The notes under the pieces: model-generated
What the model saw: only the letters and a program-made list of their open reading frames with translations
The model's database searches: none
What the model was told of the DNA's origin: nothing
Source: Gammaproteobacteria bacterium
GTDB taxonomy: Bacteria > Pseudomonadota > Gammaproteobacteria > SZUA-140
Assembly (NCBI GenBank): GCA_003230085.1
Contig: QIGV01000072.1
Location: 1-46,458, forward strand
Reading direction: 5' to 3'
Length of the DNA stretch: 46,458 bases
Program-made: the position numbers and the translations under genes
Shown: positions 1 through 46,458 of the stretch, in pieces
How positions within the stretch are numbered: position 1 is the first letter of the stretch
Layout: every line of letters starts with the position of its first letter

Positions 1-156
1 ATATTAAAATGGGTTTACTGAAAATTATACAACGCCTGATTTGTTAACTGCCAAGATCACCTGTTTATTATGCGGCTTTTATTCTTGACCTTGGTGTACC
101 ACACAGGCTGAGCTACACTATCAACCCTTAAAAAACAGAATAACAATCAAATTACC

Positions 157-5962: not shown

Positions 5963-8474
<2,512 letters not shown>

Positions 8475-8553
8475 TTTGAACCAGTCGTGATTTAAGGGTA
8501 GCAGGTATATACGCTGCTATTGTCCGGGCAGAATATTAAACCAGAAATAAAAA

Positions 8554-8739
8554 TCATCTTAACAGATACAATAGCAGGACACCGACAACCATACTGGACA
8601 AGCCGGCAAAGCGTAATGTCTGATCATTTATTTTAAGCATACTGACGACTATCCGACGCATAAGCGCTGGATTAAGAAAGGGGATCATCCCCTCGATTAT
8701 CAATAGCAGGGCCAGGGCTGCTAACAGATCGTGCCACAT
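8554..8739 (-). CDS. DUF2065 (YjeT-like) small membrane protein
   Basis: 61 aa; LAALALLLIIEGMIPFLNPALMRRIV...LRFAGLSSMVVGVLLLYLLR; conserved position downstream of hflC. Confidence 0.8.
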   Translation of the reverse strand: MWHDLLAALALLLIIEGMIPFLNPALMRRIVVSMLKINDQTLRFAGLSSMVVGVLLLYLLR

Positions 8740-8768
8740 GCAGTTGCCTTAGCAATACTGGTCGACAC

Positions 8769-10867: not shown

Positions 10868-11086
10868 TTGCTACTCCATTTTCTCAGTATTGATCTAAAT
10901 CATGTAAACCAGCTTCACATGATACCTCTACAAGGGAAACACTTTCACTACGCAACTAGGCGAATGCTACTACAATATTACTAAAGGCGCTGATTTTATG
11001 GCTCTCAGCGCCTCATCGCAAGTATTTCCAGGGGACTCATACCCCAGGGGGTTCTGAATATAGTCCAGCTCGACCAAGTCTGCACC

Positions 11087-12412
11087 CTATTTCGAGACGA
11101 GTCGACATCCGCGCTGTTTCTTTAAGTAGCCCAGCACACCCTGCCTTACGACCACGTCGACTACCCATCCTCCATTCTCGCTCATTGACTCGCTTTCTAC
11201 CACCTTCCATTTAAACAGTTTATCACGCAAACGTGCGGCCTGAGGGTGAAGATATAACCGCTGTTGTACCGTCCCTGATTCTTCCAGCCCCGTCTTAACA
11301 TCAGAGTCTGTAAGTGAATAACCCGCAGTCAAATACTCTGATAGTGCCTGGCGCAGCAAATCGATCCCCGCGCCAGTTTGCGCCGAAATCCACACCCTGG
11401 TGGGCAAGCCATTTGCCCCTCGGTCGATATGGGGTTCCACATCTTCCAGCAAATCAATCTTGTTGTAGATCTCGATTTTGGGAACATCGTCCGCCTTAAT
11501 CTCTTTCAAAACCTGCTCAACCTGGTTAATCCTCTCATGCCGCTCCTCATCGTGAGCATCTATGACGTGGAGCAGCAATGCAGCCTCCGCAGTCTCCTCC
11601 AGCGTCGACCGGAATGCGGCCACTAACTGATGGGGCAGTCCACGGATAAAACCGACGGTATCCACCATCACCAGTTGATCCAGAGGTGGTAACTCCAGAC
11701 GACGCAAGGTCGGATCCAGCGTGGCGAACAACTGATCCGATGCATATGTCTTCTCACCCGTCAAAGCATTAAACAATGTCGATTTACCGGTATTGGTATA
11801 CCCGACCAGGGATATAGTCAGCACATTAGACTTGTTTCGAGATTGACGCTGAAGTGAGCGTTGTTTTTGCACCTTGTCCAGGCGCTTTTTAAGATGCCGA
11901 ATTCTTCCCGTAATTAAGCGCCGATCAGTTTCCAGCTGAGTTTCACCTGGCCCGCGCAGGCCGATCCCCCCTTTCTGTCGCTCCAGGTGGGTCCAGCCTC
12001 TTACCAGGCGCGTTGACAGGTGCCTTAGTTGCGCCAGTTCCACCTGCAGTTTACCTTCAAAGGTACTTGCTCTTTGAGCGAATATATCCAGAATAAGGCC
12101 AGTTCGATCGACAACACGACAGCCAAGAAATTTTTCAAGATTACGTTCCTGGATAGGTGACAGGGCATGATTGACTAGAACCAGTTCGGCACCTTCCTGC
12201 TGAACAATGGCGCTTACCTCTTCCGCTTTGCCCGACCCCATAAAATAACGTGGATTGGGAACTTTCCGCGACCCCCGTACTACGGCAACTACTTCAATAT
12301 CCGCCGAGGTTGCCAGTTCGTTAAATTCATCCAGGCACTCTTTTTTCCCCCGCGATGTAAAATCAATATGTACCAGTACCGCGCGCGTCCCGCTTTGAGG
12401 TCTATCAAACAA
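11087..12412 (-). CDS. hflX: Ribosome rescue GTPase HflX
   Basis: 441 aa; SLVGYTNTGKSTLFNALTG, VDTVGFIRGLPHQLVAAFRSTLEE, KGGIGLRGPGETQLETDRR. Confidence 0.96.
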   Translation of the reverse strand: MFDRPQSGTRAVLVHIDFTSRGKKECLDEFNELATSADIEVVAVVRGSRKVPNPRYFMGSGKAEEVSAIVQQEGAELVLVNHALSPIQERNLEKFLGCRVVDRTGLILDIFAQRASTFEGKLQVELAQLRHLSTRLVRGWTHLERQKGGIGLRGPGETQLETDRRLITGRIRHLKKRLDKVQKQRSLQRQSRNKSNVLTISLVGYTNTGKSTLFNALTGEKTYASDQLFATLDPTLRRLELPPLDQLVMVDTVGFIRGLPHQLVAAFRSTLEETAEAALLLHVIDAHDEERHERINQVEQVLKEIKADDVPKIEIYNKIDLLEDVEPHIDRGANGLPTRVWISAQTGAGIDLLRQALSEYLTAGYSLTDSDVKTGLEESGTVQQRLYLHPQAARLRDKLFKWKVVESESMSENGGWVVDVVVRQGVLGYLKKQRGCRLVSK

Positions 12413-12447
12413 GCTCGCAATATCCTCCTGAAACCAGAGGGGGTACG

Positions 12448-12699
12448 TCAGTGGTCATTATTGCTGGGTTCGTGGTCATCCATCAAGGGTGTTTTAACAT
12501 TGCGCGCGGGAACAATCGTTGAAATTGCATGCTTATACACCATCTGGCTAACTGAATTCTTTAATAAAACGACAAACTGATCAAATGACTCAACTTGCCC
12601 CTGAAGTTTAATGCCATTGACGAGATAAATTGAAACTGGAACATGCTCCTTGCGCAAAGCGTTCAAAAAAGGGTCTTGCAGTGTCTGCCCTTTGGCCAT
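12448..12699 (-). CDS. hfq: RNA chaperone Hfq
   Basis: 83 aa; [47 protein letters not shown]...[10 protein letters not shown]. Confidence 0.98.
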
Positions 12700-12830
12700 T
12701 ATTATTCTCCTTATAATTCGCCGACACTCCCTCCGGCATTATAATTATTGTTAATATATCAATCTCTTGCAACACATTTCGCAAATTTCTATCCCTGATT
12801 TGTGATTGTATCACTAACCACTGTTGCAGG

Positions 12831-13805
12831 TTAATTAATTGTGGCGTCTGCAAGCAATTTCAATGTTTTCACCAAATTATTTTTATTTTCGCTCGCCAAT
12901 ACATTGACTGCCTGCTCCGAACGCAACCATGTCATCTGACGCTTGGCCAGTTGCCGGGTCGCGATAACGCCCCGAGTCACTGCCTCATGATAGCTGTATT
13001 GTCCGTCTAGATAGGCCCAGAGCTGACGATATCCAACTGCCCGTATGGCGGGCAGCCCAGAGTTCAAGTCACCGCGCTGATGCAGCGCCTCCACCTCACA
13101 AAGAAACCCATGATCAAGCATTTCCTGAAATCTGTTCTCGATACGCTGATGCAGGATTTTTCGATCTGTTGTCATCAGTCCAATTTTAAGCACGCGGTAC
13201 GGTAATTTTACTTTATCTTTACTATCAATTAGTTCCGTCATTGTTTTGCCGCTTAACTCAAAGACTTCAAGCGCACGCTGAATACGCTGCGGATCGTTAG
13301 GGTGAATCTGACTGGCGGAACGCGGGTCAATCCGCCGCAATCGCTCATGCATCGCCGGCCAGCCCTTTTGCTCGGCTTCTTTTTCGAGCGCAGACCGTAC
13401 TGCTTTATCGGCTCCAGGCAAACTAGACAAGCCCTGCTCTAATGCACGGAAATACAACATCGTGCCACCCACCAACAGCGGGAGTCGCCCCATTCGGGTA
13501 ATTTCTGCCATTTCCACAAGGGCATCAGCACGAAACTGTGCAGCAGAATAGGATTCCGCCGGATCACGAATATCAATCAGCCGATGAGGGGCCTTAGCGA
13601 GAATATCCTGGTCTGGTTTTGCTGTACCAATATCCATTCCCCGATAAACCATCGCGGAATCGACACTGATAATCTCGCAGGGCAATTGTGCCGCCAGGCA
13701 CACTGCTAAGGCAGTTTTGCCACTGGCTGTCGGGCCCATTAAAAAAATAGCTGGGGGTAAGGACGGCTTCACCTCAAGCCTCGATCTGGAACAGAAGCAT
13801 TGCAT
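12831..13805 (-). CDS. miaA: tRNA dimethylallyltransferase
   Basis: 324 aa; [48 protein letters not shown]. Confidence 0.97.
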
Positions 13806-18680: not shown

Positions 18681-19355
18681 TTATCGCTCTTCATCACCGG
18701 GTACTTCTACCGTTAAAAACGCTTTCCATTGATTCAGCGGCGGGAAAAAAGCCGGTGTCTTCCGAACATAATCATTGTATGACTCATCAAACTCCACCTC
18801 GGCACGTCGCTCTTCGAGCCTGGCCAGGCGCACATAAGCATAGAGCAAAATGGGAGCCATCAAAATGGTAAGTAACGTGGGCCATTGCACCAGAAACCCG
18901 ACAATGAAAAAGAAGAGCCCCGTATATTGCGGGTGACGGACGTAAGCGTATATGCCATCGGTGACCAGACCACCACGAGCGGCATGAATCTGCGCCCATC
19001 CCTTTGATAATAGTGTGTAACCCATAATCAGAAATACCAGACTCAACCCCATTACAATAGCCCAAGCCAGAGTTGAGCCACCGAATACCACCACCCACAA
19101 ATGACCAAACTTATGGCTGAAGGGCTGCAATACCGGATAAGCATCGCCTAGCCAACCAGTGAGCAGATAGATAGTCAAAGGAAAACCATACATCTCGGCA
19201 AAGAGGGCCACCAAAAAGGCGGTCACCACCCCCATGCTACGCCACTCGTCACTGCCCCGCGGCTTGAGAAAACCTAGAATAAAAAAGAGGAAAAGACCGA
19301 CATTAAAGGCTGCTACGACCCACAAACCGTAAAAATACCCGGTATTACCATCCAT
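18681..19355 (-). CDS. Isoprenylcysteine carboxyl methyltransferase / PEMT-like membrane methyltransferase
   Basis: 224 aa multi-TM; YAYVRHPQYTGLFFFIVGFLVQWPT and LARLEERRAEVEFDESYNDYVRKTPAFFPP are typical of ICMT/PEMT-like proteins. Confidence 0.8.
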   Translation of the reverse strand: MDGNTGYFYGLWVVAAFNVGLFLFFILGFLKPRGSDEWRSMGVVTAFLVALFAEMYGFPLTIYLLTGWLGDAYPVLQPFSHKFGHLWVVVFGGSTLAWAIVMGLSLVFLIMGYTLLSKGWAQIHAARGGLVTDGIYAYVRHPQYTGLFFFIVGFLVQWPTLLTILMAPILLYAYVRLARLEERRAEVEFDESYNDYVRKTPAFFPPLNQWKAFLTVEVPGDEER

Positions 19356-19396: not shown

Positions 19397-21940
19397 TCAT
19401 AACTTGAGGCGACGCAGGCGCAAAGCGTTCATGATCACCGAAACCGAGCTGAAACTCATGGCTGCGGCGGCGATAATCGGTGACAGCAGGATGCCGAAAA
19501 ATGGATACAGGATACCCGCCGCCACTGGCACCCCGGCTGTGTTATAGATAAAGGCAAAAAACAGGTTCTGGCGGATATTGCGCATGGTCGCATGGCTCAG
19601 GTGCCTGGCCCGAACGATGCCGCGCAGGTCACCCTTGACCAGCGTCACGCCGGCACTCTCCATGGCCACATCGGTACCGGTACCCATCGCTATTCCGACA
19701 TGAGCCTGGGCCAGGGCGGGAGCATCGTTGATACCGTCACCGGCCATGGCAACAATATGGCCTTCGGCCTGGAGCTGTTTCACGACCTCGGCCTTCTGGT
19801 CCGGCAACACTTCGGCCTGAATCTGATCAATATCGAGCTTGGCAGCCACCGCCTCTGCAGTCGCCCGGCTGTCACCGGTAAGCATGACAACCTTGATACC
19901 GGCGGCATGCAGATCACGAATGGCCTCAGGGGTCGTCTCCTTGACTGGATCGGCTACGCCGATCAGTCCGGCCGCCTTATTGTCTATCGCCAGTAGCATC
20001 ACCGTTTGACCATCGGCACGCAGGGTATCCGCCTGCTGGGGCAGATCTCCGACCTCGATCCCCAGGCTTTCCAGTAACTTGATATTTCCCAGCGCCACCG
20101 GGTGGCCATCCACTGTGCCAGTAACACCCTTGCCGGTCACCGACTGAAAATTCTCAGTCTTGACCAGCGTCAATTCTCTCTCCTCGGCGCCCCGCACGAT
20201 GGCCTCAGCCAAAGGATGTTCACTGGCCCGCTCCAGGCTGGCGGCCAGCCGCAATGCCTCGTGCTCGTGAATGCCATCGGTCGCCACCACAGACACCAGC
20301 TTCGGCTTGCCTTCAGTCAGGGTGCCAGTCTTGTCCACCACCAGGGTGTCCACCTTTCTCAACACTTCCAACGCCTCGGCATTCTTGAATAACACCCCCA
20401 TCATCGCCCCTTTACCGGTGCCGACCATGATGGACATGGGTGTTGCCAGCCCCAATGCACAGGGACAGGCGATGATCAATACCGCTACGGCATTGATCAC
20501 GGCGTAGGCGATAGCAGGCTCCGGCCCCCAGATACCCCAAACAATGAAGGTAATCACTGCGACCGCTACCACGACCGGGACGAAATAGCCCGCCACAAGA
20601 TCCACCAAGCGCTGGATTGGCGCCCTCGAACGCTGCGCATCGGCAACCATCTGCACGATCTGTGACAACAATGTATCAGCGCCAATTTTTTCGGCTTTCA
20701 TCAGCAGACTACCCGTACCGTTGACCGTGGCACCGATCAGACGCTCCCCCGCCATTTTTTCTATTGGCATTGCCTCACCCGTCACCATGGACTCATCCAC
20801 GTTGCTTTCCCCATCGATCACCGTACCGTCCACCGGCACCTTTTCACCGGGACGCACCCGCAGCGTATCGCCAACCTGAACATGTTCCATCGGAATGTCT
20901 TCTTCAGTGCCATCGTCCCGGATGATGCGCGCGGTCTTGGGTGCCAGCCCCAGCAATAGCTTGATGGCCGCATTGGTCTGACTGCGCGCTCGCAGTTCCA
21001 GCACCTGTCCAAGCAATATCAATGCGGTGATCACCGCTGCCGCTTCAAAATAGACCGGTACAACGCCAACATCATTGAACACCTCGGGCGGGAAAACACC
21101 GGGGAAGATTGTAGCAATAATACTATAGGTATAGGCAACCGATACACCGAGCCCAATGAGGGTAAACATATTCAGGTTACGCGTGATAATCGACTGTATG
21201 GCGCGCACATAGAATATCCAGCCTCCCCAGACGATCACCGGGGTTGCGACTATCATCTCAAGCCACTGGCGCAAACCGGGATTGATCAGCTCCGCCATGC
21301 CTTCGGGCCAGAACTCGGCGGCCATGGCGCTGAATAACACCGGGATGGCCAACGCAGCACTGACCCAGAAATGTTTGGTCATATAGTCGAGTTCGCTGGT
21401 GTCCTCCTCTGCCTCTACCGTGACGGCCTCCAGGGCCATGCCACACTTGGGACAACTGCCCGGTTCGTCCTGTACGATTTCCGGGTGCATGGGGCAGGTG
21501 TATTCGGTCTTGCTCGGTGCAGCGGTAACCACCATGGGATCCAGCGCCATGCCGCACTTGGGACAACTGCCCGGTCCTTGTTGCTGGACTTCCGGATGCA
21601 TAGGGCAGGTATACATCGCCGTATCCGATGTCGCCGCCGGCGTGCTTGAAGATGGGTGATCATGTTTACCTTTACCACCACAACAGCTATGCGCCTTTTC
21701 CGTTTGTCCGTGCTTCGATGCCTCGCCAGGATGCTGTTGTTGCTTGCCACCACAGCAGCTATGTTTTTTCTCCGCATGTTCAGGCTTTGATGCCTCGTCA
21801 GGCTGGAGATACTGTGCCGGTGATTCCTTGAATTTTCCCAGACAGCGTGCGCTGCAGAAATAGTAGTGCTCATCTTCATGAACCTGATGAAACTCCGAAT
21901 CGGAAGCCACCTCCATGCCGCATACAGGATCTCGTGCCAT
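19397..21940 (-). CDS. copA: Cu+-type P1B ATPase with N-terminal YHS domain, Cys/His-rich repeats and two heavy-metal-binding domains
   Basis: 847 aa; DPVCGMEV...FCSARC (YHS), two x HSCCGGK, two x YTCPMHPE...[47 protein letters not shown], and C-terminal YN / MSFSS, as in Cu+ ATPases. Confidence 0.93.
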
Positions 21941-22006: not shown

Positions 22007-22429
22007 CTACAGTGGTTCTATCACCGTCTCAATCAGATGACAGATCTCATCACCGTCTGGTTCTCCGTCCGGCATGGCTTTCCATTTTTCCAATGCCTCC
22101 TCCATACGGTGTTGCAGAGCATTCAGTTCAGCCAACCTGATACGGTTATCATCGATACGCTGGCAAATAATATCACGGACAGCGGGACAGGGTGATTGCC
22201 CCTGGCTTTCGTGCCTGAAAATTTCCTGGATATCGTTCAGGGAGAAACCCAGTCCCTTCGCCTGGCGGATAAATTTCACCTTTTTGATATCACTACCATT
22301 GAACAACTTGTAGTCGTTGTGAGGGTCCCGCCTTGGGTTTAGCAACCCGATCCTTACATAGTGACGTATGGCATCGGATGTCACCTGGGCTGATTTGGAT
22401 AATTCGCTGACTGTCATCATCATAATCAC
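22007..22429 (-). CDS. MerR family transcriptional regulator
   Basis: 140 aa; TVSELSKSAQVTSDAIRHYVRIGLLNP...FIRQAKGLGFSLNDIQEIF; directly upstream of copA. Confidence 0.9.
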   Translation of the reverse strand: MIMMMTVSELSKSAQVTSDAIRHYVRIGLLNPRRDPHNDYKLFNGSDIKKVKFIRQAKGLGFSLNDIQEIFRHESQGQSPCPAVRDIICQRIDDNRIRLAELNALQHRMEEALEKWKAMPDGEPDGDEICHLIETVIEPL

Positions 22430-22475: not shown

Positions 22476-22507
22476 AGTCTAATACCCAGGTGTCACACAC
22501 AGGTCAA
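22476..22507 (-). promoter_or_regulatory. MerR-type promoter/operator upstream of merR-copA (site S1)
   Basis: Minus strand TTGACC-TGTGTGTGACACCTGGGTAT-TAGACT: 20-bp spacer holding the dyad ACCTGTGTGTGACACCTGGGT (ACCnnnGTGTnACACnnnGGT). Confidence 0.75.
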
Positions 22508-22511
22508 GCTT

Positions 22512-23249
22512 TTAATCACAATTCAATTTAAATACCATCACCCGGTAGAAACCGTCAAATATTTGATGGTTCTCAGTCAATTCAACGCGCTTCCCGAGAG
22601 CCAGCGCCTCGGCCTGCAACATGGCCACGATATCTTCACGCCAGAACTCCTGCAGGAAGGGCTCATAGCGGGTCAATAACTTGCGGACCGGCCAGCAGCG
22701 ATACAGCCAATGTGTACTCGGCTCCATGCCGTATTCTGTCACTACCAGGCTTCCTCCCGGTTGCAACACCCGAATAGTTTCACTCAAAACATGCCGCCGG
22801 GCTTCGGTCGGCATTTCGTGCATGAGAAAAAAGATCAGCACAGTGGCAAAACCATTATCCCTAAGCCCAAGATATTCGGCGTTCATGCGCATGGGCAACA
22901 AACCATATCGTTTCGCAGCAAGTTTTGACCGACTGGCCTTTAGCTGAGCAGAAGACACGTCAAGAAGAAAGAGCGGTTCATCTCCCAAATGATGCACCAG
23001 ACTCGGTGTCAGCTTGCCATACACACAGGTTAGCTGCAAAAAACGCCCGGCAGGACGTTCCACCAGACAGGACATGGTCTTTTTCAATAGGCGGTTATAC
23101 TGCCCGAACAAAATAATATTGATGATTGGCTGATGATCAAAAAACCAGATCGCGGGTCGCCACAAATATGCCCACCAATAATGGCGCGCCAGATAAACCG
23201 GTGTGCCATCCAGAAAATAGCGCCAAAAAGATAGACCAAATTTCAGCAA
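22512..23249 (-). CDS. RquA-like class I SAM-dependent methyltransferase-fold protein (candidate rhodoquinone biosynthesis)
   Basis: 245 aa; HYWWAYLWRPAIWFFDHQPIINIILFGQYNRLL, RFLQLTCVYGKLTPSLV in place of the usual DxGxGxG, and IFFLMHEMPTEARRHVL recall RquA family motifs. Confidence 0.6.
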   Translation of the reverse strand: MLKFGLSFWRYFLDGTPVYLARHYWWAYLWRPAIWFFDHQPIINIILFGQYNRLLKKTMSCLVERPAGRFLQLTCVYGKLTPSLVHHLGDEPLFLLDVSSAQLKASRSKLAAKRYGLLPMRMNAEYLGLRDNGFATVLIFFLMHEMPTEARRHVLSETIRVLQPGGSLVVTEYGMEPSTHWLYRCWPVRKLLTRYEPFLQEFWREDIVAMLQAEALALGKRVELTENHQIFDGFYRVMVFKLNCD

Positions 23250-23324
23250 GCGTAAAATACCATCTAATAAGAATGCCTCATCCTACGTGATGGCAGGACA
23301 ACAATCCAGATCCGCCAATGGTGC

Positions 23325-23352
23325 TTGACAACACAAAAATACGGGGTATTGT
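23325..23352 (+). promoter_or_regulatory. Putative sigma70 promoter for the cytochrome c gene
   Basis: TTGACA (23325-23330), 16-bp spacer, TATTGT (23347-23352), 38 bp upstream of the start codon. Confidence 0.45.
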
Positions 23353-23389
23353 TGAGATTAATCGGGATATAGTAAGGAGCAATAATGAC

Positions 23390-23674
23390 ATGAATAAAAA
23401 ATACCTCGCAGCCCTGTTAACCACGACCATACTCAGCATACCGTTTATCGCATCCGCCAACCCGGATGGTGAATCACTATTCAAAAGCAATTGTACAATG
23501 TGTCATGATATCGACCAGAAAAAAATGGGGCCCTCTGTAAAATCAATGAACACTGATCCCAAAGTTTTGCACGCAACCATCACCGCAGGCAAAAATGCAA
23601 TGCCAGGCTATGATGGAAAATTAAGCGGCGCCGAGATTGATGCACTGGTCAAATACCTGGTGGCAAACCAATAA
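23390..23674 (+). CDS. Small periplasmic class I cytochrome c
   Basis: Start at the internal ATG of ORF 23318..23674; signal peptide MNKKYLAALLTTTILSIPFIASA; CTMCH heme site; distal Met in KNAMPGYDGKLSGAEIDALVKYL. Confidence 0.88.
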   Translation: MNKKYLAALLTTTILSIPFIASANPDGESLFKSNCTMCHDIDQKKMGPSVKSMNTDPKVLHATITAGKNAMPGYDGKLSGAEIDALVKYLVANQ

Positions 23675-23783
23675 AAACATGACTATCGATAACAGACTGA
23701 GATCTGTCACAGGTATTGTTATGAACTGACATCCTGTGTATCACCTTCTTCATACGGACAATAATAATTAAGGGGAATCCGAG

Positions 23784-24974
23784 ATGAAAATGAGATATCG
23801 TTATTTTAAAATCGCAGGCACAATTGGGCATTCCAGATTAATCTGGCTAATATCAGCCACCCTCATCGTCAATTTTTTTCTCATCAGCACTGCAAATGCG
23901 ATCCCTGCCTTTGCCCGAAAATATCAGGCTGAATGCAGTACCTGCCACAATAACTGGCCTGCACTGAATGCCACTGGCCGCAAGTTCAAGGAACAGGGCT
24001 ACCGCATGTCTCGCGCAGAGGAACAGGGCTTTCTGAACTGGGACAAAACCCTGCCCGTTACCGCCATGATCAAGGCCCGACCCTATGAAAAAGAAGATAA
24101 CGGCGACAAAAAAATACGTGCGCTGCACGAGGTAGAAATCATGATAGGGGGCGTGATGGCCAAGGATATTTCCGGCTTTTTCGAACTCGAGGCAGAGGAT
24201 GACAATGATTTTAATGTTGAGGTGGGATCAGCCTCAATTGCCTATCACCCTATGGATGCGCTCAATGTCCAGTTTTCATGGGGAGCGATCACCTGGAACG
24301 ATCCCTATGACGTCTATTCCAATGCCCGCAAGTTAACCCGTAACCGTGCCTCAGTTATCAATGAACGCTTTGGTGGCGCAGATAATAATGGGCGCGTGCG
24401 TGATTCACGGCAAAACGTCACCCTCTATGGTCGACCAAAGGAAATGATCTACTATAGCATTGGTATCAGCGGTCTTGCAGATGACTCAAACGGTGAGGAC
24501 AGCGACGTTATCAACGGCCGCCTGGCCTGGGATATCAAACAGAATATCATGGTAGGGCTCACCGCCATGAGCGGCTCTTGTGAGAACACCGCAAGCAATT
24601 GTGCCGTTAAACGAGATTTTACCCGGGTCGGAATCGATGCACAGGCAGACTTCGACAATATTCGCGTGATGGGCGCCTTACTGAGCGCCAAAGATGACAA
24701 TGCCGCGGGTACGAACGAGGATGAAAATTTAGCGCTATACGTCGAAGCCAGCTATGCCTTCAAGAAGGACGGTCGCACGACCTTTGTCCCTCTACTGCGT
24801 TTAGACAGCTATGAGAGAAATGACGGCAAGGATGATTTCACTGAACTCACTGCCCAGGTCAGCTATTACTTAACACAAAACGCGCGTGGCTTCATTGAGT
24901 TCTGGAATCAGGACGCACCGGGCTCAGGTAATAATAACAATATGCTGACTTTGCAGGGTGAGGTCACATTTTAG
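23784..24974 (+). CDS. Monoheme c-type cytochrome fused to a predicted outer-membrane beta-barrel (Cyc2-like architecture)
   Basis: 396 aa; signal peptide then IPAFARKYQAECSTCHNNWPALNATGRKFKEQGYRM, a single CxxCH, followed by about 300 aa of alternating barrel-like sequence ending in ...MLTLQGEVTF (C-terminal aromatic). Confidence 0.7.
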   Translation: MKMRYRYFKIAGTIGHSRLIWLISATLIVNFFLISTANAIPAFARKYQAECSTCHNNWPALNATGRKFKEQGYRMSRAEEQGFLNWDKTLPVTAMIKARPYEKEDNGDKKIRALHEVEIMIGGVMAKDISGFFELEAEDDNDFNVEVGSASIAYHPMDALNVQFSWGAITWNDPYDVYSNARKLTRNRASVINERFGGADNNGRVRDSRQNVTLYGRPKEMIYYSIGISGLADDSNGEDSDVINGRLAWDIKQNIMVGLTAMSGSCENTASNCAVKRDFTRVGIDAQADFDNIRVMGALLSAKDDNAAGTNEDENLALYVEASYAFKKDGRTTFVPLLRLDSYERNDGKDDFTELTAQVSYYLTQNARGFIEFWNQDAPGSGNNNNMLTLQGEVTF

Positions 24975-35286: not shown

Positions 35287-35925
35287 ATGTCAGAGTTCTT
35301 ACAATCCCTCATGACAGTGGCAAACAACTACGAGCCATTACTCGTAGAGTATGGCCTGATAATTATTCTCACTGCCATCGCGATAGAGGGTTTCGGAATA
35401 CCTGCACCAGGTCAAAGCCTGCTTATCGCGGGTGCACTACTAAGCACACGCGGTGAATTCGATATCCGCCTGTTACTTATATCGGCCTCGCTTGCCACGA
35501 TAGCCGGAAGTACGCTGGGCTATATTATTGGCAGAATCGGCGGCAGAAAACTGCTGCTTCGTCTACCACTACGTCCCTCCAGACTTGAACGTATGGAGGC
35601 ATTCTGTCAACGCTATGGCACACTACTCGTCATCCTCTCGCGCTTCATCGACGGCCCCCGGCAACTCACTGGTATTTTCGTCGGCAGCCTGAAAATGCCG
35701 GCCATAGTGTTCCTCCTGGCAACCAGTGCAGGTGCAGTGTTATGGGTTGGTTTTTGGGGGATCAGCAGCTACTACCTTGGCCAGCATATACATGCCATTG
35801 CACAGGTTTTCGAATCTATTGCGCCTTACACCTGGATTACTACAGGGATTTTAATCCTCGCAATATGCATATATCTGTTCCGAAGACACCATCACCGTAA
35901 TAAGTCAACGCCAGGGGAACACTAG
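35287..35925 (+). CDS. DedA family membrane protein
   Basis: 212 aa; AIEGFGIPAPGQSLLIAGALLS, GSTLGYIIGRIGGRKLL, ILSRFIDGPRQLTGIFVGSLKM. Confidence 0.85.
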   Translation: MSEFLQSLMTVANNYEPLLVEYGLIIILTAIAIEGFGIPAPGQSLLIAGALLSTRGEFDIRLLLISASLATIAGSTLGYIIGRIGGRKLLLRLPLRPSRLERMEAFCQRYGTLLVILSRFIDGPRQLTGIFVGSLKMPAIVFLLATSAGAVLWVGFWGISSYYLGQHIHAIAQVFESIAPYTWITTGILILAICIYLFRRHHHRNKSTPGEH

Positions 35926-36740
35926 CCAAAAAATTCCCCGGATAGCCAAAGTCCTCCTGCCAAAAAACCAAATGTAATTATAATTACGACTATGACAGTG
36001 CCCGACCCTGGTCGTTCACCACCGCCATGATCGTCGTGACCACCTTCGCCCTGGTCAACAGGGCTGCCATGTTCAGCGCCATGTTCCAGCTCTGGGCGGA
36101 CAGTCAACATACCGTGTTTCATGTTGTTGACGACCAACCACCAATTGATTGGGTAGGCTAGTGCGAACCCTACCACCAACGCCATCGACATGGTAAACCA
36201 GAAGGCGAGTTGAAAGGGGTCACCGGCGCCCTCAATCCGATGCATCAGGAATTTCATGGTCGGGATCATACCGGTCATCAACAGGTTCATCGACACCAAC
36301 TCGGGGATGAACGTTTCCTTTAGCGACCGTGTGTACGAACCGCCAACCATATCACGCATAGCGAAGGCCTGGAAATAGGCCCATCCAAAACCAAATCCAA
36401 GTGTGTACTCAAGCGCGAAATCACCCCATGCCGAGAGGCCCAGGTAGGCGCCGATTGCAGCGCCAGTAATGATACCGATACCGTCTCCGGCAGCACAATG
36501 CATGGTTGAACCAAGTACCTGGCGCCACGTTGCAGAAACATACTGCTCATGGGTGCCTTTCAGCGGTTCGCGGCAGCCAAGCACATAGAAGAATGCGCCA
36601 AGCGGACCGGTAAAAACAACCAGGATAACGAACGCCCACTTGAGTACCGTCGACTCAGGCGTCTTTGGTATATCAATGACGACAAAAGCCACCGACAGGC
36701 CGGTCAAAACAAACCAGGCGATCATAATACCTTCAATCAT
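35922..36740 (-). CDS. DUF4396-like membrane protein
   Basis: 272 aa; MHCAAGDGIGIITGAAIGAYLGL, EYTLGFGFGWAYFQAFAMRDMVGGSYTRSLKETFIPELVSMNLLMTGMIP, ALAYPINWWLVVNNMKHGM. Confidence 0.7.
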   Translation of the reverse strand: MIEGIMIAWFVLTGLSVAFVVIDIPKTPESTVLKWAFVILVVFTGPLGAFFYVLGCREPLKGTHEQYVSATWRQVLGSTMHCAAGDGIGIITGAAIGAYLGLSAWGDFALEYTLGFGFGWAYFQAFAMRDMVGGSYTRSLKETFIPELVSMNLLMTGMIPTMKFLMHRIEGAGDPFQLAFWFTMSMALVVGFALAYPINWWLVVNNMKHGMLTVRPELEHGAEHGSPVDQGEGGHDDHGGGERPGSGTVIVVIIITFGFLAGGLWLSGEFFG

Positions 36741-36825
36741 AATATCTATCCTTGCACAATGCTTTTATTGATTATGAGTTTTTCTTCTTTTTTCGACCAG
36801 GGCCTGCGCTCGCCGACATACATTT

Positions 36826-36894
36826 TCAACAATGACGACCCAGCTTCATTGATATCGGAGCAATCCCTCGTTCTGAGAGCAGCTGCATTGACAT
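36826..36894 (-). CDS. Putative 22-aa leader ORF upstream of the DUF4396 gene
   Basis: Minus strand TTTTGAGGAGGCACACC-ATG... encoding MSMQLLSERGIAPISMKLGRHC*; strong Shine-Dalgarno. Confidence 0.35.
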   Translation of the reverse strand: MSMQLLSERGIAPISMKLGRHC

Positions 36895-37028
36895 GGTGTG
36901 CCTCCTCAAAATAATACACTTCTCACTTTACCCGGATGACGACACAGGCTGCAACCCATCCCGGTAAAGACCATTTTTTCCGCAGTGGTATCGGCATGTG
37001 AAACTGCAATGGTGTTAAGCTTGAGCAC

Positions 37029-37060
37029 AATGTAAAACCTGTGTGCAGCTTACGGGTCAA
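37029..37060 (-). promoter_or_regulatory. Weaker MerR-type promoter/operator (site S3) upstream of the DUF4396 gene
   Basis: Minus strand TTGACC-CGTAAGCTGCACACAGGTTT-TACATT, 20-bp spacer; 23/32 identity to site S2; half-sites 7/10 complementary. Confidence 0.45.
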
Positions 37061-39259: not shown

Positions 39260-39997
39260 TCAGCGATCACGACCCTCCAATTTACGCCAGGTAAAATGTT
39301 CGTACACACCCGACCAGTACATACCGAAGCCGATAGCAAACAACAGCTCCTCAATGGGCATATAACCAATATTTATCCCGGATAACACTCCCAGATTCCA
39401 AACCCGATCAATATAACCCGGGGCACTCCATTCCAGACCTGCTAAAAAGATGGCGTAATAGATCAAAAACAGCAAACCTCCAATCCAGGTTTTTGATTTC
39501 AGATCCGGCCGACAGAGAACAGTTGCCAAAGCACCGGCAAACATGGCAAGAATTGAAGGGTAAATCGGGTTCCAGGGGAATAAATAGAGCGCAATAAAAA
39601 CAAAAAATGGCGTGGCCAGTGCTTTGTAATGATGCCGGTGCAAAGAGTGATGGCGTTCACAAGCGCCCACAGCCTGAGGAATTTTTTGGGTTAGAAGGTT
39701 ATAAAATACGGAGCCAATACCACCAATACCAAAACAGAAAATCAGGCTTTCGATATCAAATCCTGTATTTTCTGCCAGATCAAACAGGCTGGGTGGCATC
39801 CAGTATTCCGGTACAAACAGCGGTTCGCTCAGGCCGAATGGCATCGTAAACAGGCTCGCCCATAGCATAGCCCGGCGCTGCGCGGGAAACACCATATAGA
39901 CAAGCGCCCAAGGTATCAGAAATGCGCTCGACCAGAGCAACCAGACGTATTGATCAGGATTCATTGCAGACAGCGCCTTATAACCATCGCCTGACAC
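39260..39997 (-). CDS. Lycopene-cyclase-domain-like membrane protein
   Basis: 245 aa; YVWLLWSSAFLIPWALVYMV, EPLFVPEYWMPPSLFDL, NLGVLSGINIGYMPIEELLFAIGFGMYWSGVYEH (P-x-E-E motif as in the CrtYc/CrtYd-type fold). Confidence 0.7.
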   Translation of the reverse strand: MSGDGYKALSAMNPDQYVWLLWSSAFLIPWALVYMVFPAQRRAMLWASLFTMPFGLSEPLFVPEYWMPPSLFDLAENTGFDIESLIFCFGIGGIGSVFYNLLTQKIPQAVGACERHHSLHRHHYKALATPFFVFIALYLFPWNPIYPSILAMFAGALATVLCRPDLKSKTWIGGLLFLIYYAIFLAGLEWSAPGYIDRVWNLGVLSGINIGYMPIEELLFAIGFGMYWSGVYEHFTWRKLEGRDR

Positions 39998-41105
39998 TCC
40001 ATCCCAAAAGCTCTGCTAATCGCGGTATCCAGCGGCGATTCCGCCAACGTGTGGCACACACCGCTGAAGCTTCTGCCACGTCAAGCTCAAATTGTGCTTG
40101 TAAACGACTGCAGAGGTCAGGGTCTCGACTGACCAGGTTCAATTCATAGTTTTGAAACAGACTGCGATAATCAAGGTTGGCAGTACCCAATGTCGCCCAG
40201 TTTCCATCCACGATGGCGACCTTGGCATGCAACATTCTGGGCAGGTACTCATAGATCCTGACACCCGCATCTAACAGATGTGCATATACGGCATTGGCTG
40301 CCCAGCCCGCCAGGCGTACATCACTGGTACGCGGCACTAATAATCGAACATCAACACCCCGTTTTACCGCCGCAAGCAATGCTTTCTGCGTACGATGATC
40401 GGGCACAAAATAAGGCGTCGTCAGACAGACCTGTTTTTTGGCGCTGCTTAATAAGTCTTTATATAAACAGGCCAGTCGCCGCCGACAAGAGCGGGTCTGA
40501 TTGGGTACCAGCACACTGCTTTTCCGGCCATCGTTATAGGGCAACCAGCGTCGATCACCGCGCCAGAATGCGTCAAACAACTCGGCAGCCTGGCGGGCCA
40601 GAAGCCCTTGAAAAGAAGCGTGAGTATCACGCCAACGTTCAGCGCCAAAATAGCGCCGTGAACTTTGCCGATGTATATTAAAGCCACCCAGAAAGGCCTG
40701 ATGACCATCTACCACCAGTAGTTTACGATGATCACGGCGGTTGTAGCGCAACGGTTCACGCCAGTGCCAGGGATGAAAGTGACGTACCTGCACCCCCGAT
40801 TGACCTAGCTCAGGTCCCAATGAGCGGTAAAACTGAAACAACGATCCTAGCGCATCTACCAACAGACGCACCTCTACTCCAGCCCTTGCCCGCTCCGATA
40901 AAGCACGGGCAAAACGACGGCCCACCTCATCATCGGCGAAAATGTAAGTCTCCATCCACACCTGCTCTTGCGCACCTTCGATAGCTGCGAGCATCGCCTC
41001 AAACAAATGGTCACCTTCCGTATACAGCTGAATGGTGGCGCCAATAGTGCCTGGCTCCGGCAGTGGGTTGCATGAACAAGGATCATCCACCATGCTATTT
41101 CGCAT
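39978..41105 (-). CDS. Cardiolipin synthase / phospholipase D-like protein
   Basis: 375 aa; two HKD motifs, HRKLLVVDGHQAFLGGFNI and HAKVAIVDGNWATLGTANLDYRS. Confidence 0.9.
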   Translation of the reverse strand: MRNSMVDDPCSCNPLPEPGTIGATIQLYTEGDHLFEAMLAAIEGAQEQVWMETYIFADDEVGRRFARALSERARAGVEVRLLVDALGSLFQFYRSLGPELGQSGVQVRHFHPWHWREPLRYNRRDHRKLLVVDGHQAFLGGFNIHRQSSRRYFGAERWRDTHASFQGLLARQAAELFDAFWRGDRRWLPYNDGRKSSVLVPNQTRSCRRRLACLYKDLLSSAKKQVCLTTPYFVPDHRTQKALLAAVKRGVDVRLLVPRTSDVRLAGWAANAVYAHLLDAGVRIYEYLPRMLHAKVAIVDGNWATLGTANLDYRSLFQNYELNLVSRDPDLCSRLQAQFELDVAEASAVCATRWRNRRWIPRLAELLGWSVRRWL

Positions 41106-41116
41106 TCAATCCCTGA

Positions 41117-41908
41117 TCAGCGCCGCGACACATGCGCCAGTGCTTCTCGAACATCGAGTTCCCGAGTCCCGTTACCAGTACGTAAGAAATAGCGAGGGAC
41201 CTTACCATCGACACAATATACGGGCTCTGGTGAATGCTCCACAACGATACGGCAAACATCTTTTTCATCTATTCCATAAAACATGCAATGCACAAGTGCA
41301 CAAAGATCCCCTCCCAGACGTGTTTTTACGATGTCTGTGATACACCGCTCAAACCCATCCCGGCCTTTATGTTTAAGCGTCTGGTAATCGTTTGCTAATC
41401 CGACGATGTCTCCATCGTCATTGACACCCACCAGCAGGCTTCCGCCCTTATGGTTCATAAATCCCGCGATCGTTTTTGCAATCACACTCTCGAGCGCGCG
41501 ATTAGGCTTGTCCTGCTGGTGGTCCCACCGCACCGAGGACTTAAATTCAAGGTGCTCGCTTTCGCCACTTTTGATCAAAAACGGCAGGTCCACGGCCAGT
41601 TCTTTTTCAAGAGACCGAACGGTTCGATGCTGCCTGATAATGGCAAGATGATACAAGCCAAACCAGGAACCAATGCCACCACCAATAAGGCCGAAAATTA
41701 TGCTCATGGGGATCATCTCAATTGAAAAAGAGGTTTCCAGTCGAAATAGCAAAAACTCCCACAGACTTCCTACACCTGTCGTCATCGTATCCTTAAATTC
41801 AAACCAGTAGACAGCTTTGGTCAGGGGGTGCAAGACAATGATCCCTATCACTGCGCCAAGCAGAAAATGACGCGTCAATGACCACATGTCAGAAGATGTT
41901 ACTTTCAT
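41117..41908 (-). CDS. Membrane-anchored AlbA_2 (Schlafen-like) domain protein
   Basis: 263 aa; N-terminal TM segments, then ESEHLEFKSSVRWD...ESVIAKTIAGFMNHKGGSLLVGVNDDGDIVGL. Confidence 0.82.
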   Translation of the reverse strand: MKVTSSDMWSLTRHFLLGAVIGIIVLHPLTKAVYWFEFKDTMTTGVGSLWEFLLFRLETSFSIEMIPMSIIFGLIGGGIGSWFGLYHLAIIRQHRTVRSLEKELAVDLPFLIKSGESEHLEFKSSVRWDHQQDKPNRALESVIAKTIAGFMNHKGGSLLVGVNDDGDIVGLANDYQTLKHKGRDGFERCITDIVKTRLGGDLCALVHCMFYGIDEKDVCRIVVEHSPEPVYCVDGKVPRYFLRTGNGTRELDVREALAHVSRR

Positions 41909-41937: not shown

Positions 41938-42666
41938 CTAGCATGTTTTGTGGGGCGAACGCCTGAACCACATCTGATACAGGGAACTGAATATCTGTAT
42001 CGCTAAACATAAACCCAGCACCCCGCCAGCAATAACTACGGTATAAGCGTAAACAGGATCCCACTTGGTGAGAAACCAGGCCAGGATATCCACGAACATG
42101 GCAACAAAGGGTAATACAATCAGGGTAGACTTCAGCCCACTGTGCATCTCGACACGCCGGAACACCATACCCACGCCGAACAGAATAAGACCAATACCAA
42201 ACAAGTGTATGTGTGATACTTTCATCAGACTATGAATCGACATGCCGGTATCAATGCCGGTTACCTCCTGGATACCCTCATAGGTGGACAAATTCGGAAT
42301 ATCCAACCCGGACTCGGGACTATGACAATCCAGACAGCGCTCGGCCAGTATCGGTCTAACAACCGATTTATATCCGCTTTCGGGTGCTCCGGATTGAATC
42401 CAGGCAACAATTTTTCCACGCGCCTTGATCTGGATATATCCCGACATCGGACCTCGCATTGCCGCCTCCAGGCGACTACCACTACGGTTACCATAATAAT
42501 CTTCTGCAATATCCTCTACCGAAAGACCAGGCTTGCCATCGACATTTTCAAAACTTGTATAGAGAAAAGCCAGCGCCATCAAATACCCCAGCCCCATCAG
42601 TAAAACAAATGAGGTATAGAGCAATCGTTCACTGAATTCACATTCACAAATAGGTCGTAATTTCAT
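41938..42666 (-). CDS. Membrane-bound cytochrome c-like protein
   Basis: 242 aa; N-terminal TM, VVRPILAERCLDCHSPESG (CxxCH), then multiple TMs including SHIHLFGIGLILFGVGMVF. Confidence 0.75.
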   Translation of the reverse strand: MKLRPICECEFSERLLYTSFVLLMGLGYLMALAFLYTSFENVDGKPGLSVEDIAEDYYGNRSGSRLEAAMRGPMSGYIQIKARGKIVAWIQSGAPESGYKSVVRPILAERCLDCHSPESGLDIPNLSTYEGIQEVTGIDTGMSIHSLMKVSHIHLFGIGLILFGVGMVFRRVEMHSGLKSTLIVLPFVAMFVDILAWFLTKWDPVYAYTVVIAGGVLGLCLAIQIFSSLYQMWFRRSPHKTC

Positions 42667-42680
42667 TTTCTAATTCCAGT

Positions 42681-43169
42681 TTAATGATGGTGGGAAGAGG
42701 TGACTTCCAGACTTTCGATCTGTAGTTCCTCGCTTTCTTGTAAAAAAGCGCGACGCAAGCGCTCTGACCAGCCTCCTCCCAGTTGAATGCCAATCTCAAC
42801 CAGCTTTTCCTCAAGCTGCTTCAATGTCACCTGCAGCAAGTCATAGGTGATCTCTATGGTGTCTTGCGATACCTTGAGATCCTTGATACCCATCATCGCC
42901 TGCAGTGCCTCACTGACCTGCGTGGTATCCTCCGACGACAAAGGCTGGGACAGGCGAATGCGGCGCCGCTTGACCACTTCCCGACCCTCCTGCTTGGGCG
43001 CCTTGTGCCCGGGTGTACCGATATATAAATGGGGATTGGTCAAAAAACGTGCCTTGCACTGCTTTGAACAGAATGCGAAAGACATCTGTAAATATTCAAT
43101 CGCATTGTCCTGCGAGTCCACCATCATCCCACATACCAAATCCTTGACCCGATCATCATCTTGGCTCAT
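42681..43169 (-). CDS. YHS domain protein with a C-terminal heavy-metal-associated-like region
   Basis: 162 aa; VKDLVCGMMVDSQ...FAFCSKQCKARFLTNPHLYIG; C-terminal SHHH. Confidence 0.8.
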   Translation of the reverse strand: MSQDDDRVKDLVCGMMVDSQDNAIEYLQMSFAFCSKQCKARFLTNPHLYIGTPGHKAPKQEGREVVKRRRIRLSQPLSSEDTTQVSEALQAMMGIKDLKVSQDTIEITYDLLQVTLKQLEEKLVEIGIQLGGGWSERLRRAFLQESEELQIESLEVTSSHHH

Positions 43170-43182
43170 ACCTCACCTCCTT

Positions 43183-44883
43183 CTAGTGTATATACGCCTC
43201 GGTCACATAACGCCGCATCATGCGGTGGGTATTGAAAAATGAAGCATTCTTGCAGATAGCACCTTTCATGACCTTGACCCATTTGTCCTGGTGATTGTGA
43301 TACAGGGGCAAAACAACATGTTCCAGTTTATGGTACAGAGATTGTTCATCCGCACCATTATCGGATTCTGCACTGTCACCGATTGACCAGCCGGTCACCC
43401 CTTCAATGCAGCCCTCGATCCACCAGCCATCCAGAATACTCAGGTTGGGAACACCATTGAATGCCGCCTTCATGCCGCTGGTCCCGGAGGCTTCCATTGG
43501 ACGTAGTGGCGTATTCAGCCACACATCTACACCCGCCACCATTAAACGGGCAATCTCCATATTGTAACCCGGCAGAAAGGTCATATTGACGATGCCGTCA
43601 AGTTCATGAATGTGGCGATGGAGCATCTCTATAAGCTGCTTACCGCCCTCGTCATGGGGGTGCGCTTTACCTGCCAATACAATTTGAAAAGGGTATTTTT
43701 GCGCAATCCTCTTCAAACGTTCCAGGTCGGAAAAAAGTAAATCGGGGCGTTTGTAAGCCGTCATGCGGCGCGCGAAACCAAAGGTGGGAAGATTACTATC
43801 AAACGTCGCCCCGGTCAGCGTCTTGATTTTATCTATCAGCGAAGCTTTCGCAAGCTGGTGTGCGTTTAGGACTTCCTCATCTGAAATACAACATTCGGCG
43901 CGCACCAACAGCTCCGGTTCATGACACCAACCACTCAGGTGGTGATCAAAGAGTTTAGCAAAACCCGGATGGGTCCAGGTATAGGGATGCACCCCGTTGG
44001 TGACTGCATTCACCCGGTAACCGGGAAACATCTTGCGGGAGATTTCGGCATGGCGCTTGGCCACGCCGTTGACGTATTCACTCAGATTAAGTGCCAGGCG
44101 CGTCATATTGAGCTCGTCCTCCCCGGCAAGCTGTTTCAAAGTAGGCAGATCGATAAAATCACCCAGAACACTTTTCACCAGATCATAGGAAAACCGGTCA
44201 TGCCCGGCTTCCACCGGCGTATGTGTCGTGAAACAGCACAGCTCCCGCACCAGCGGAATATCATAGGATGGCTCACCGGGGCGCCTGTCCTCGGGGTGAT
44301 AGGCAAAGCGTTTCAATAATTCCAGGCCCAGCAAGGCAGAATGACCTTCATTCATATGGTGCTGGCGGACTTCAAAACCCAGTGCCTGTAGCAAACGCAT
44401 GCCGCCAATGCCTAAAATAATTTCCTGTTTGAAACGATAGCTTTTATCTCCCCCATACAGTGTATGAGTAATCTTCCGGTCTTCACTACTGTTCTCGTCC
44501 AGGTCCGTATCGAGTAACAGAACAGGTTGCCTGCCCCCCATATGGCCTTCAAGGATATAGAGCCAGGCACTCACCCAGACGGGGCGTCCTTCAATCGTGA
44601 CTGAAACCTTGGCGCCCAGTGGAGTTGCATGATCCGCCGGATCCCAAAACGCGGGCTGCTCGGTCTGACGCCCCTGTTCATCAAGCGCCTGACGAAAGTA
44701 CCCTGCCCTGCTGACCAGACTGACCGCCACCATCGGCAGATTCAGATCGGTAGCTGAACGCATGGTATCGCCGGCCAGCACCCCCAGACCGCCACTATAG
44801 GTGGGAATATCATTGCGTAGTGCAATCTCCATCGAAAAATAGGCGATCCGCGGTTCGTGGATAAATTCATTCAACATGGCCAA
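43183..44883 (-). CDS. glgP: Alpha-glucan (glycogen) phosphorylase
   Basis: 566 aa; [79 protein letters not shown]. Confidence 0.92.
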
Positions 44884-44905: not shown

Positions 44906-44937
44906 AGTCTAAAACCTTTGTGTAACACCCAGGTCAA
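44906..44937 (-). promoter_or_regulatory. MerR-type promoter/operator upstream of glgP (site S2)
   Basis: Minus strand TTGACC-TGGGTGTTACACAAAGGTTT-TAGACT; 26/32 identity to S1; dyad ACC-TGG-GTGT-T-ACAC-AAA-GGT. Confidence 0.72.
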
Positions 44938-44946
44938 TTGCTTACT

Positions 44947-46458
44947 TCAGTGGCTCCATTTCCAGTTGCGAATCTCGGGCATATCTTCCCCGTAAGTGGT
45001 GATATAGGTTTTATGCTCAATGAGTTTATCGCGCATTTGCTGCTTCAGATAGGCGGCCGATGGACCCAGCTTTGCGACACGGTCAATCACATCCTGCACC
45101 AGGTGATAGCGATCCAGATCATTCCTGACCACCATATCAAATGGTGTGGTAGTGGTGCCCTCCTCCTTGAAACCCCGCACATGCAGATGATGATGACACA
45201 GGCGTCGGTAAGTCAGGCGATGGATCAACCAGGGGTAACCATGATAGGCAAAGATCACAGGAACATTAGAGGGAAACAGATCATTAAAATCAGCATCTGG
45301 CAAACCATGGGGATGTTCACTGGACGGCTGCAATGTCATCAAGTCCACGACATTAATAACCCGCACCTTTAAATCCGGTAGATGGTGGCGCAGTATATCC
45401 ACTGCGGCCAACATTTCGATGGTGGGCACATCCCCTGCCGCTGCCATCACAACATCCGGGATGCCGTCCTGATCATTACCCGCCCACTCCCAGATGCCGA
45501 TCCCGGCGATGCAGTGCCTGACGGCCTCATCCATATCCAGCCACTGAAGTTGGGGCTGCTTACCGGCCACAATAACATTCACAAAATTTCGGCTGCGTAA
45601 GCACTTATCCGTGACAGCCAACAACGTGTTGGCATCCGGTGGCAGATAGACCCGAATGATATCCGCTTTTTTATTGACCACATGATCGATAAAGCCGGGG
45701 TCCTGGTGAGAAAACCCGTTATGGTCCTGGCGCCAGACGTGAGAGGTCAGCAGATAGTTAAGTGATGCAATGGGCTGTCGCCAGGGAATTTCAGTGCTGG
45801 TCACCTTGAGCCATTTGGCATGCTGGTTAAACATGGAATCAATGATATGAATAAAGGCCTCATAGCAGGAAAACAGGCCATGCCGTCCGGTGAGCAAATA
45901 ACCTTCCAGCCATCCCTGACAGGTATGTTCACTAAGAATCTCCATCACCCGACCGTCAGTGGCCAGATGATCATCCTCGGGCAGTGTCTCAGCCTGCCAG
46001 GCCCGGCCGGTCACCTCAAACAAGGCACCGAGACGGTTGGAGGCCGTTTCGTCGGGGCCAAAAATACGGAAATTACGACTTTCCTGATTGAGCTGCATCA
46101 CATCCCGTAACAACTGCCCCATGGCTCGCGTCGCCTCACCCAGGCACTGACCGGGATGATCTACCGCCAGCGCATATGCCCTGAAGTCCGGCATCCTGAG
46201 ATCCTTCAACAGCTTGCCGCCATTGGTGTGCGGATTGGCGCCCATCCGCAGCGCTCCCTGTGGCGCCAGCGCTGCCAGTTCCGGGATCAGAGCCCCACGT
46301 TCATCGAAAAGTAATTCAGGCTGGTATGACTTCAACCATTGCTCAAGCAGTTTGAGGTGTTCGGGTTTGCTAGCAAGTTCTCCAAAAGGCACCTGATGGG
46401 AACGCCAGTAGTCTTCGGTTTTTTGGCCATCCACTTCCCTGGGACCGGTCCAGCCCTT
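44947..46458 (-). CDS. xfp: Phosphoketolase (5' end beyond the window)
   Basis: Reading frame is open to the window edge ([25 protein letters not shown]...); [59 protein letters not shown]. Confidence 0.93.

Follow-up and report, generated by a model that had tools for sequence, protein, structure and literature searches.

A promoter/operator of the MerR type lies directly upstream of glgP, a gene for a short alpha-glucan phosphorylase, in a gammaproteobacterial genome bin (GenBank assembly GCA_003230085.1, lineage SZUA-140), and closely resembles the operator of a merR-copA pair on the same contig. In our judgment it is highly probable that the MerR protein encoded beside copA fires three operons in response to a metal, with copper as the most likely inducer, and that copper export, carbon flow, and membrane repair are joined in this way. 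The site before glgP (S2) would then be a working operator of this regulator. The extension of a metal regulon to glgP appears well supported by sequence comparison, because the pairing of the site with glgP recurs in other genomes; the regulation of glgP itself is without expression or binding data in any species.

The operators and their promoter layout

The window, i.e., the whole stretch of DNA that was analysed (46,458 nucleotides), is an entire contig (C14, QIGV01000072.1) of a 2.9-Mb genome bin that is 81% complete. An initial annotation, made from the sequence alone, had quoted a 32-mer before glgP, which matches the minus strand exactly, and the likeness that it had seen between this site and the merR-copA site (S1) was reproduced in each respect: an identity of 26/32, a common layout of TTGACC, 20-bp spacer, and TAGACT, and a 21-bp dyad ACC...GTGT-N-ACAC...GGT. 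A dyad between the -35 and -10 hexamers, separated by a 20-bp spacer, meets the layout of metal-responsive promoters of the MerR family, and the operators of relatives include variants with a 19-bp spacer. S2 lies in a gap of 63-67 bp between the stop of the phosphoketolase gene xfp (44947) and the start of glgP (TTG at 44883 or ATG at 44879), 22-26 bp from the latter. S1 is 47 bp from merR, so that the regulator gene stands behind its own operator and beside an efflux pump gene, as it does in many relatives. While both of these sites were borne out, a third one (S3) had been missed. All features are collected in Table 1.

Table 1. Operators and genes discussed in the text, with their positions in the window.
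Feature	Position	Strand	Basis
S1, operator of merR-copA	22476..22507	-	Matrix score 37.0; S1 absent from training
S2, operator before glgP, TTGACCTGGGTGTTACACAAAGGTTTTAGACT	44906..44937	-	Matrix score 38.6, null maximum 20.9
S3, third operator, TTGACCCGTAAGCTGCACACAGGTTTTACATT	37029..37060	-	Matrix score 28.7; genome-wide pattern scan
merR, distinct subfamily (SPCPxVR ... CHLIE)	22007..22429	-	PF13411, PF09278; alignment
copA, Cu(I)-type P1B ATPase, N-terminal YHS domain and CPC motif	19397..21940	-	TIGR01511, 596.8 bits (cut-off 397); sequence
ICMT, isoprenylcysteine carboxyl methyltransferase-like membrane protein	18681..19355	-	NF040696 below cut-off; 79-85% orthologues adjoin copA in relatives
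DUF4396 membrane protein, presumed target of S3	35922..36740	-	PF14342; 289-bp leader
xfp, phosphoketolase, cut by contig end, directly upstream of S2	44947..46458	-	XFP domains
glgP, short alpha-glucan phosphorylase	43183..44883	-	NCBIfam TIGR02094, 546 bits (cut-off 192); likely start ATG 44879
YHS-domain protein, C-terminal His tail	42681..43169	-	Pfam PF04945; orthologues behind sites in L098, L119, L125
Membrane protein with one CxxCH haem motif (CLDCH)	41938..42666	-	Sequence; 59-64% orthologues in merR-copA operons
Membrane protein with Schlafen/AlbA_2 domain	41117..41908	-	PF04326
cls, cardiolipin synthase-like, two PLD domains	39978..41105	-	PF13091; TIGR04265, 245.7 bits (below 290 cut-off)
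LycCyc, lycopene-cyclase-domain membrane protein, last gene of the directon	39260..39997	-	PF18916

Behind S2, the genes are closely packed on the same strand, as the initial annotation had described; they are separated by 13, 14, 29, and 11 bp, and in one case overlap by 20 bp. The glgP, YHS, cytochrome, and cls genes had been recognized correctly; the upstream neighbour xfp, the AlbA_2 membrane protein, and the terminal lycopene-cyclase-like protein had been overlooked. The complete order is glgP, YHS, membrane cytochrome, AlbA, cardiolipin synthase, and lycopene-cyclase-like. Among the loci compared, the AlbA_2 protein was seen in the window only.

S3 precedes the DUF4396 gene. This gene was found in only two other genomes, neither of which has the site. 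The leader (36740-37060, minus strand) contains two very short open reading frames, one with a CxxC motif and one with a good ribosome site, and these could be small regulated genes. A fourth candidate (S4, TTGACCTTGGTGTACCACACAGGC, 85-116, plus strand) is located 41 bp 5' of pgl-glgX. Both of its half-sites are near the operator consensus, a pair that was seen in 0/100 shuffles, but about three extra bases separate them from TACACT. Its matrix score of 12.5-16.1 falls inside the null range and no such site is conserved 5' of relatives of glgX; it was left undecided, and is possibly a decayed or variant site. It should also be mentioned that the region adjoining S1 (22512-24974) carries genes for a UbiE-like methyltransferase, a cytochrome c, and a porin-like protein, which in the window are not downstream of a site; their relatives lie inside merR-copA operons in three genomes (G003, G009, and G012).

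Specificity of the operator and its link to the regulator

Orthologues of the window merR were found in 63 of 369 genomes of the class, and their promoters share the pattern TTGACCTGTGTGYARCAC..GG...TA.ACT; the operators of this subfamily read ACCTGTGTGNNRCACACAGGT or close to it. A matrix was trained solely on the merR promoters of other genomes, with S1, S2, and S3 left out. In 3 Mb of order-1 Markov sequence, scanned on both strands with the same matrix, the maximum score was 20.9 (for the three sites, see Table 1). At a score of at least 22, the matrix yielded 65 forward and 0 reversed matches in 1.19 Mb of fetched loci, some of which overlap. The genome-wide claims rest on degenerate patterns and not on a full matrix scan. 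The genome-wide search that had been proposed at the outset, carried out with such a pattern, returned S1, S2, and S3 and nothing else in the 2.9-Mb bin, against 0 for the reversed control, and all three sites are on the window contig.

The operator tracks the regulator. In 42 genomes that belong to the family or bear the MerR, the pattern gave 44 matches against 5 in the reversed control, and the corresponding figures for 43 genomes that lack the MerR, of which 14 have glgP, were 3 and 3, all poor. The site, with at most one mismatch, occurs in 21 genomes of the unbiased set of 369 from the class, and 19 of these 21 have the MerR (p=3e-14).

A distinct subfamily of MerR regulators and its likely signal

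Alignment revealed two marks of the subfamily, SPCPxVR and MPDGxPDGxxxCHLIE. The window MerR stays below every NCBIfam equivalog cut-off, including those for CueR (TIGR02044, 63.6 vs 147.4), ZntR (68.4 vs 168), and MerR (72.7 vs 151). CueR carries a serine at the first metal position, a mark of monovalent-ion sensing. The CueR marks Ser77 and the C112-x7-C120 loop are not met in the window protein, which has a cysteine at the aligned position and a single C-terminal cysteine, conserved in the subfamily within PDGxPDGxxxCHLIE. Compared with solved structures, Cys81 stands where Tn501 MerR has C82 and where CadR has its cysteine, and Cys130 corresponds to the final cysteine of a MerR (4ua1); a counterpart of the middle MerR cysteine is missing. 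Nor do the subfamily operators meet the CueR operator ACCTTCC-N7-GGAAGGT. Because of Cys81, the lack of C112, and the operator of its own, this regulator is not CueR. The earlier description of a copper-efflux regulator is corrected on two points: the protein belongs to a separate subfamily, and its copper signal is only inferred.

That inference is drawn, with reserve, from the Cu(I)-type partner pump and from a merR-copA cluster of Alteromonas macleodii that is reported to be copper-induced; on these grounds, copper is the most likely inducer. Sequence rules alone would not predict a copper sensor here, since Cys81 is placed as in the sensors of divalent ions. The regulon could be real while answering another signal, either a divalent metal (for example Cd, Pb, Hg, or Zn) or a mix. 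The cysteine shared with MerR and CadR, where CueR has a serine, and the best NCBIfam scores, which are those of zinc and mercury regulators (all below cut-off), agree with such a signal. We nevertheless consider it unlikely, given that in 21 genomes the pump paired with the regulator is an ATPase of the Cu(I) type, that CusCBA stands behind a site in G040, and that the copper-induced A. macleodii cluster has the same signature and operator.

A second MerR of the same subfamily (51%) is encoded on another contig of the bin, C140. On the stretch concerned (L213, G000:C140:1-6171), it is accompanied by a second YHS protein, two HMA proteins, a cytochrome c, a small YHS protein, and a transaldolase. 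This protein could share S2 with the window MerR or have it to itself. Its shared signature and these neighbours would allow the idea that this paralogue, and not the MerR linked to copA, mainly regulates S2, so that the glgP operon answers a different signal. We regard this as quite improbable. The paralogous merR lacks a good copy of the operator (the best, between merR and the next gene, is weak and scores 17.8), whereas S1 and S2 are alike and lie on the contig of the window merR; moreover, where glgP is found inside merR operons, copA is usually there too.

Recurrence of the site and its downstream genes in other genomes

In the fetched loci, 65 distinct sites with a score of at least 20 were compared for their downstream directons, with cluster names checked with Pfam on representatives. 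These directons contain copA in 21 genomes or plasmids, merR in 18, and ICMT in 15, followed by cyclopropane fatty acid (CFA) synthase and a DUF5676-type small membrane protein (11 each), cytochrome c (8), the one-haem membrane protein of the window type, YHS, and glgP (7 each), UbiE-like methyltransferase and glutamate dehydrogenase (5 each), patatin (4), cls, G6PDH, and 2-oxoacid oxidoreductase (3 each), and transaldolase and LycCyc-like proteins (2 each). Since most loci were fetched for the site or the MerR and not for glgP, the content of glgP, YHS, and cls is not built in; the counts are approximate, because they depend on a simple directon rule and on mechanical calls of open reading frames. 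In other words, the YHS, cls, membrane cytochrome, and LycCyc genes of the window each reappear behind this operator in other genomes. For example, cls is behind a site in G204 and G323, and transaldolase or G6PDH in G098 and G204.

The absence of the site upstream of orthologous glgP genes had been named as a result that would refute the link, and where this test is applicable the link passed it, with sites in G322 and Methylophaga pinxianii. In G322, which has the closest glgP (79%), the site is followed by a DUF2934 gene and then glgP, with ackA-xfp-transaldolase upstream. On the M. pinxianii plasmid pWTT2411, the site is 107 bp 5' of glgP, with merR next, and its core, GGTGTAACACAAAGGTTT, is nearly equal to that of S2. 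In G149, the site precedes porin, cytochrome c, a small open reading frame, and glgP. The most extensive case is a directon of 17 genes in G162, with one site and gaps of at most 151 bp (merR-MetHis-copA-ICMT-DUF2934-glgP-...-CFA synthase-P-type ATPase-xfp-YHS-FAD enzyme-LycCyc-ackA), which contains orthologues of seven window genes (merR, copA, ICMT, glgP, xfp, YHS, and LycCyc). The merR-copA-ICMT-glgP arrangement is also present in G259, G010, and G055. The extended metal regulon proposed earlier is thus upheld by a pairing that recurs, both as a site before glgP and as glgP within merR-copA directons.

Within 300 bp 5' of all glgP orthologues, S2-like sites are mostly absent, including those of G005, G006, G007, and G011. 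This scarcity seemed to refute the link until the presence of the MerR was considered; G005 was searched for the MerR, which is absent. A congener (G001) was dropped as a witness for conservation, as it has neither the short glgP nor a good site. A copper-type gene lies no more than 10 kb away in 15 of the 34 glgP loci that were scored; the other 19 have none in the fetched stretch, and the site, too, is missing from most orthologues of this kind. Many chromosomal glgP orthologues are without a copper link, and this link is accordingly frequent but not universal.

The link extends to the Alphaproteobacteria. In Ancylobacter, glgP is part of an operon of copper ATPase-cueR-DUF411-DUF2934-glgP; in Pseudorhizobium, it lies near cueR, copper ATPase, cls, type II GAPDH, and multicopper oxidase genes; and in Indioceanicola, it occurs with ICMT, YHS, CFA synthase, and type II GAPDH. 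On a Microvirga plasmid, glgP is found with glgX and no copper gene in the fetched stretch. On the first three of these alphaproteobacterial stretches (L232, L233, and L234, all from plasmids), glgP is accompanied by DUF2934 or CBS proteins and belongs to a copper cluster or lies close to one; a cueR is annotated in two of them, and type II GAPDH, UbiB, cls, or CFA synthase genes are nearby. As a separate observation, a copper operon on a plasmid of Methylophaga thalassica (L205, NZ_CP143310.1 200141-220551) continues into genes for a thymidine-phosphorylase-family protein, PRPP synthetase (prs), an MBL protein, and a PLD protein.

It could be objected that the operator merely moved with a block of mobile DNA and is functionally unrelated to glgP metabolism. 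The block is indeed accessory, as seen from the congener, and related clusters are found on plasmids and genomic islands. The reappearance of the site directly 5' of the same types of gene in different gene orders, together with the alphaproteobacterial case in which glgP is tied to copper genes under a regulator annotated as CueR (Ancylobacter), makes such hitch-hiking very doubtful. S2 does contain plain -35 and -10 hexamers, but the reading of it as a common sigma-70 promoter that resembles S1 by chance is refuted by its score of 38.6 against the null maximum, the genome scan, the scan of the fetched loci, a 20-bp spacer that is poor for plain sigma-70, and the recurrence of the site 5' of glgP elsewhere. 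On another note, a housekeeping block at 5963-13805 of the window recurs in G076 (L195, G076:C18), where it lies directly upstream of a glgP (71%), and this may be a recurrent integration neighbourhood.

A proposed copper-responsive switch

In the reading that we prefer, a regulon under the window MerR with copper as its likely signal, the metal-loaded protein would sit between the -35 and -10 hexamers and untwist promoters with the over-long 20-bp spacer, like other MerR regulators. S1 would drive merR-copA-ICMT and hence the pump, S2 the operon from glgP to LycCyc, and S3 the DUF4396 gene. From the S2 operon, the cell would gain glucose-1-phosphate, released from glycogen at no cost in ATP, together with a YHS protein that binds metal, a membrane cytochrome, and cardiolipin. 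An ATP-sparing carbon route could then run from glycogen through glucose-1-phosphate to the pentose phosphate, phosphoketolase, and acetate kinase steps, while copper is pumped out and the membrane is repaired or remodelled. In relatives, the same operator would bring in G6PDH, transaldolase, and CFA synthase as well; xfp and ackA are frequent at glgP loci. Whereas the sites, their specificity, the MerR link, and the recurrence before the same genes were computed, binding, the induction of glgP, and the purpose of the regulon are inferred, as is the signal.

These carbon enzymes contain no iron-sulphur cluster and could by-pass copper-poisoned steps. Some regulon members in relatives (2-oxoacid oxidoreductase and a GltD-like protein) normally use iron-sulphur clusters, which speaks against a pure by-pass. 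In Staphylococcus aureus, copper inhibits the PRPP synthetase Prs, a pentose phosphate enzyme (PMC10249872). I would speculate, as a tentative idea that is possible rather than probable, that this undescribed MerR subfamily is a copper-triggered metabolic switch. Besides the pump, it would provide spare copper-tolerant carbon enzymes (glycogen phosphorylase, G6PDH, transaldolase, phosphoketolase, and acetate kinase; elsewhere PRPP synthetase or type II GAPDH), which by-pass the poisoned steps, and membrane repair by cardiolipin and CFA synthases and patatin, and the same module would be wired to different copper regulators in different bacteria.

The common picture of metal resistance consists of pumps, oxidases, and chaperones controlled by a regulator of narrow scope. 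In the present case, a single switch of the MerR type would extend, via operators dedicated to it in many genera, to glycogen breakdown, pentose phosphate and phosphoketolase enzymes, cytochromes, and the lipids of the membrane. Such a reach suggests that metal stress makes these bacteria rewire their central metabolism and their membranes. It offers a testable answer to how carbon and energy flow persist when copper poisons central metabolism, and it gives a likely signal and context for unannotated genes, such as those for the YHS protein, the one-haem membrane protein, the LycCyc-like protein, and DUF2934.

Relation to known systems

The initial annotation knew of no described regulon with this content, and a search of the literature on glgP, copper, and MerR regulons (open-licence papers and few subscription journals) likewise found only the core cluster. 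What appears to be new, judged from the sequences, is a MerR metal regulon of a distinct subfamily that extends into carbon and lipid metabolism; the core merR-copA cluster was already known. The nearest system is the merR-copA-cupredoxin-DUF2933-ICMT cluster of A. macleodii, which is copper-induced and located on plasmids and genomic islands (PMC8478169). Induction was measured in strains CUKW and KCC02, and the signature and operator compared here are from strain HOT1A3. The window shares with this cluster the MerR signature (PCPxVR ... CHLIE), the operator 5' of merR, and the copA and ICMT partners, and in these respects corresponds to an Alteromonas-type cluster; induction by copper is published for A. 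macleodii and not for the organism of the window. The available part of that publication mentions neither a second operator nor targets such as glgP, xfp, cls, or YHS, and it does not take the regulon beyond the cluster.

The Ancylobacter plasmid cluster is similar in having glgP and its DUF2934 partner in a copper operon; its regulator is annotated as a canonical CueR with a CueR-type operator, and its glgP is about 58% identical. With MerR (Tn501 and Bacillus) and CadR, the window regulator has Cys81 in common, and with MerR also the last cysteine; in contrast, it lacks the middle cysteine of MerR, has no mer or cad genes nearby, and scores far below the family cut-offs. Finally, the CueR regulon of Escherichia coli (cueR, copA, and cueO) likewise combines a MerR-type activator and an over-long spacer with a Cu(I) ATPase as target, and in the window copA adjoins merR in a CueR-like manner, although this is adjacency only and activation has not been shown. 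The two systems differ in the operator (ACCTGTG-type, not ACCTTCC...GGAAGGT) and in the regulator (a cysteine in place of Ser77, and no C112), and the targets of the window type extend to carbon, redox, and lipid genes.
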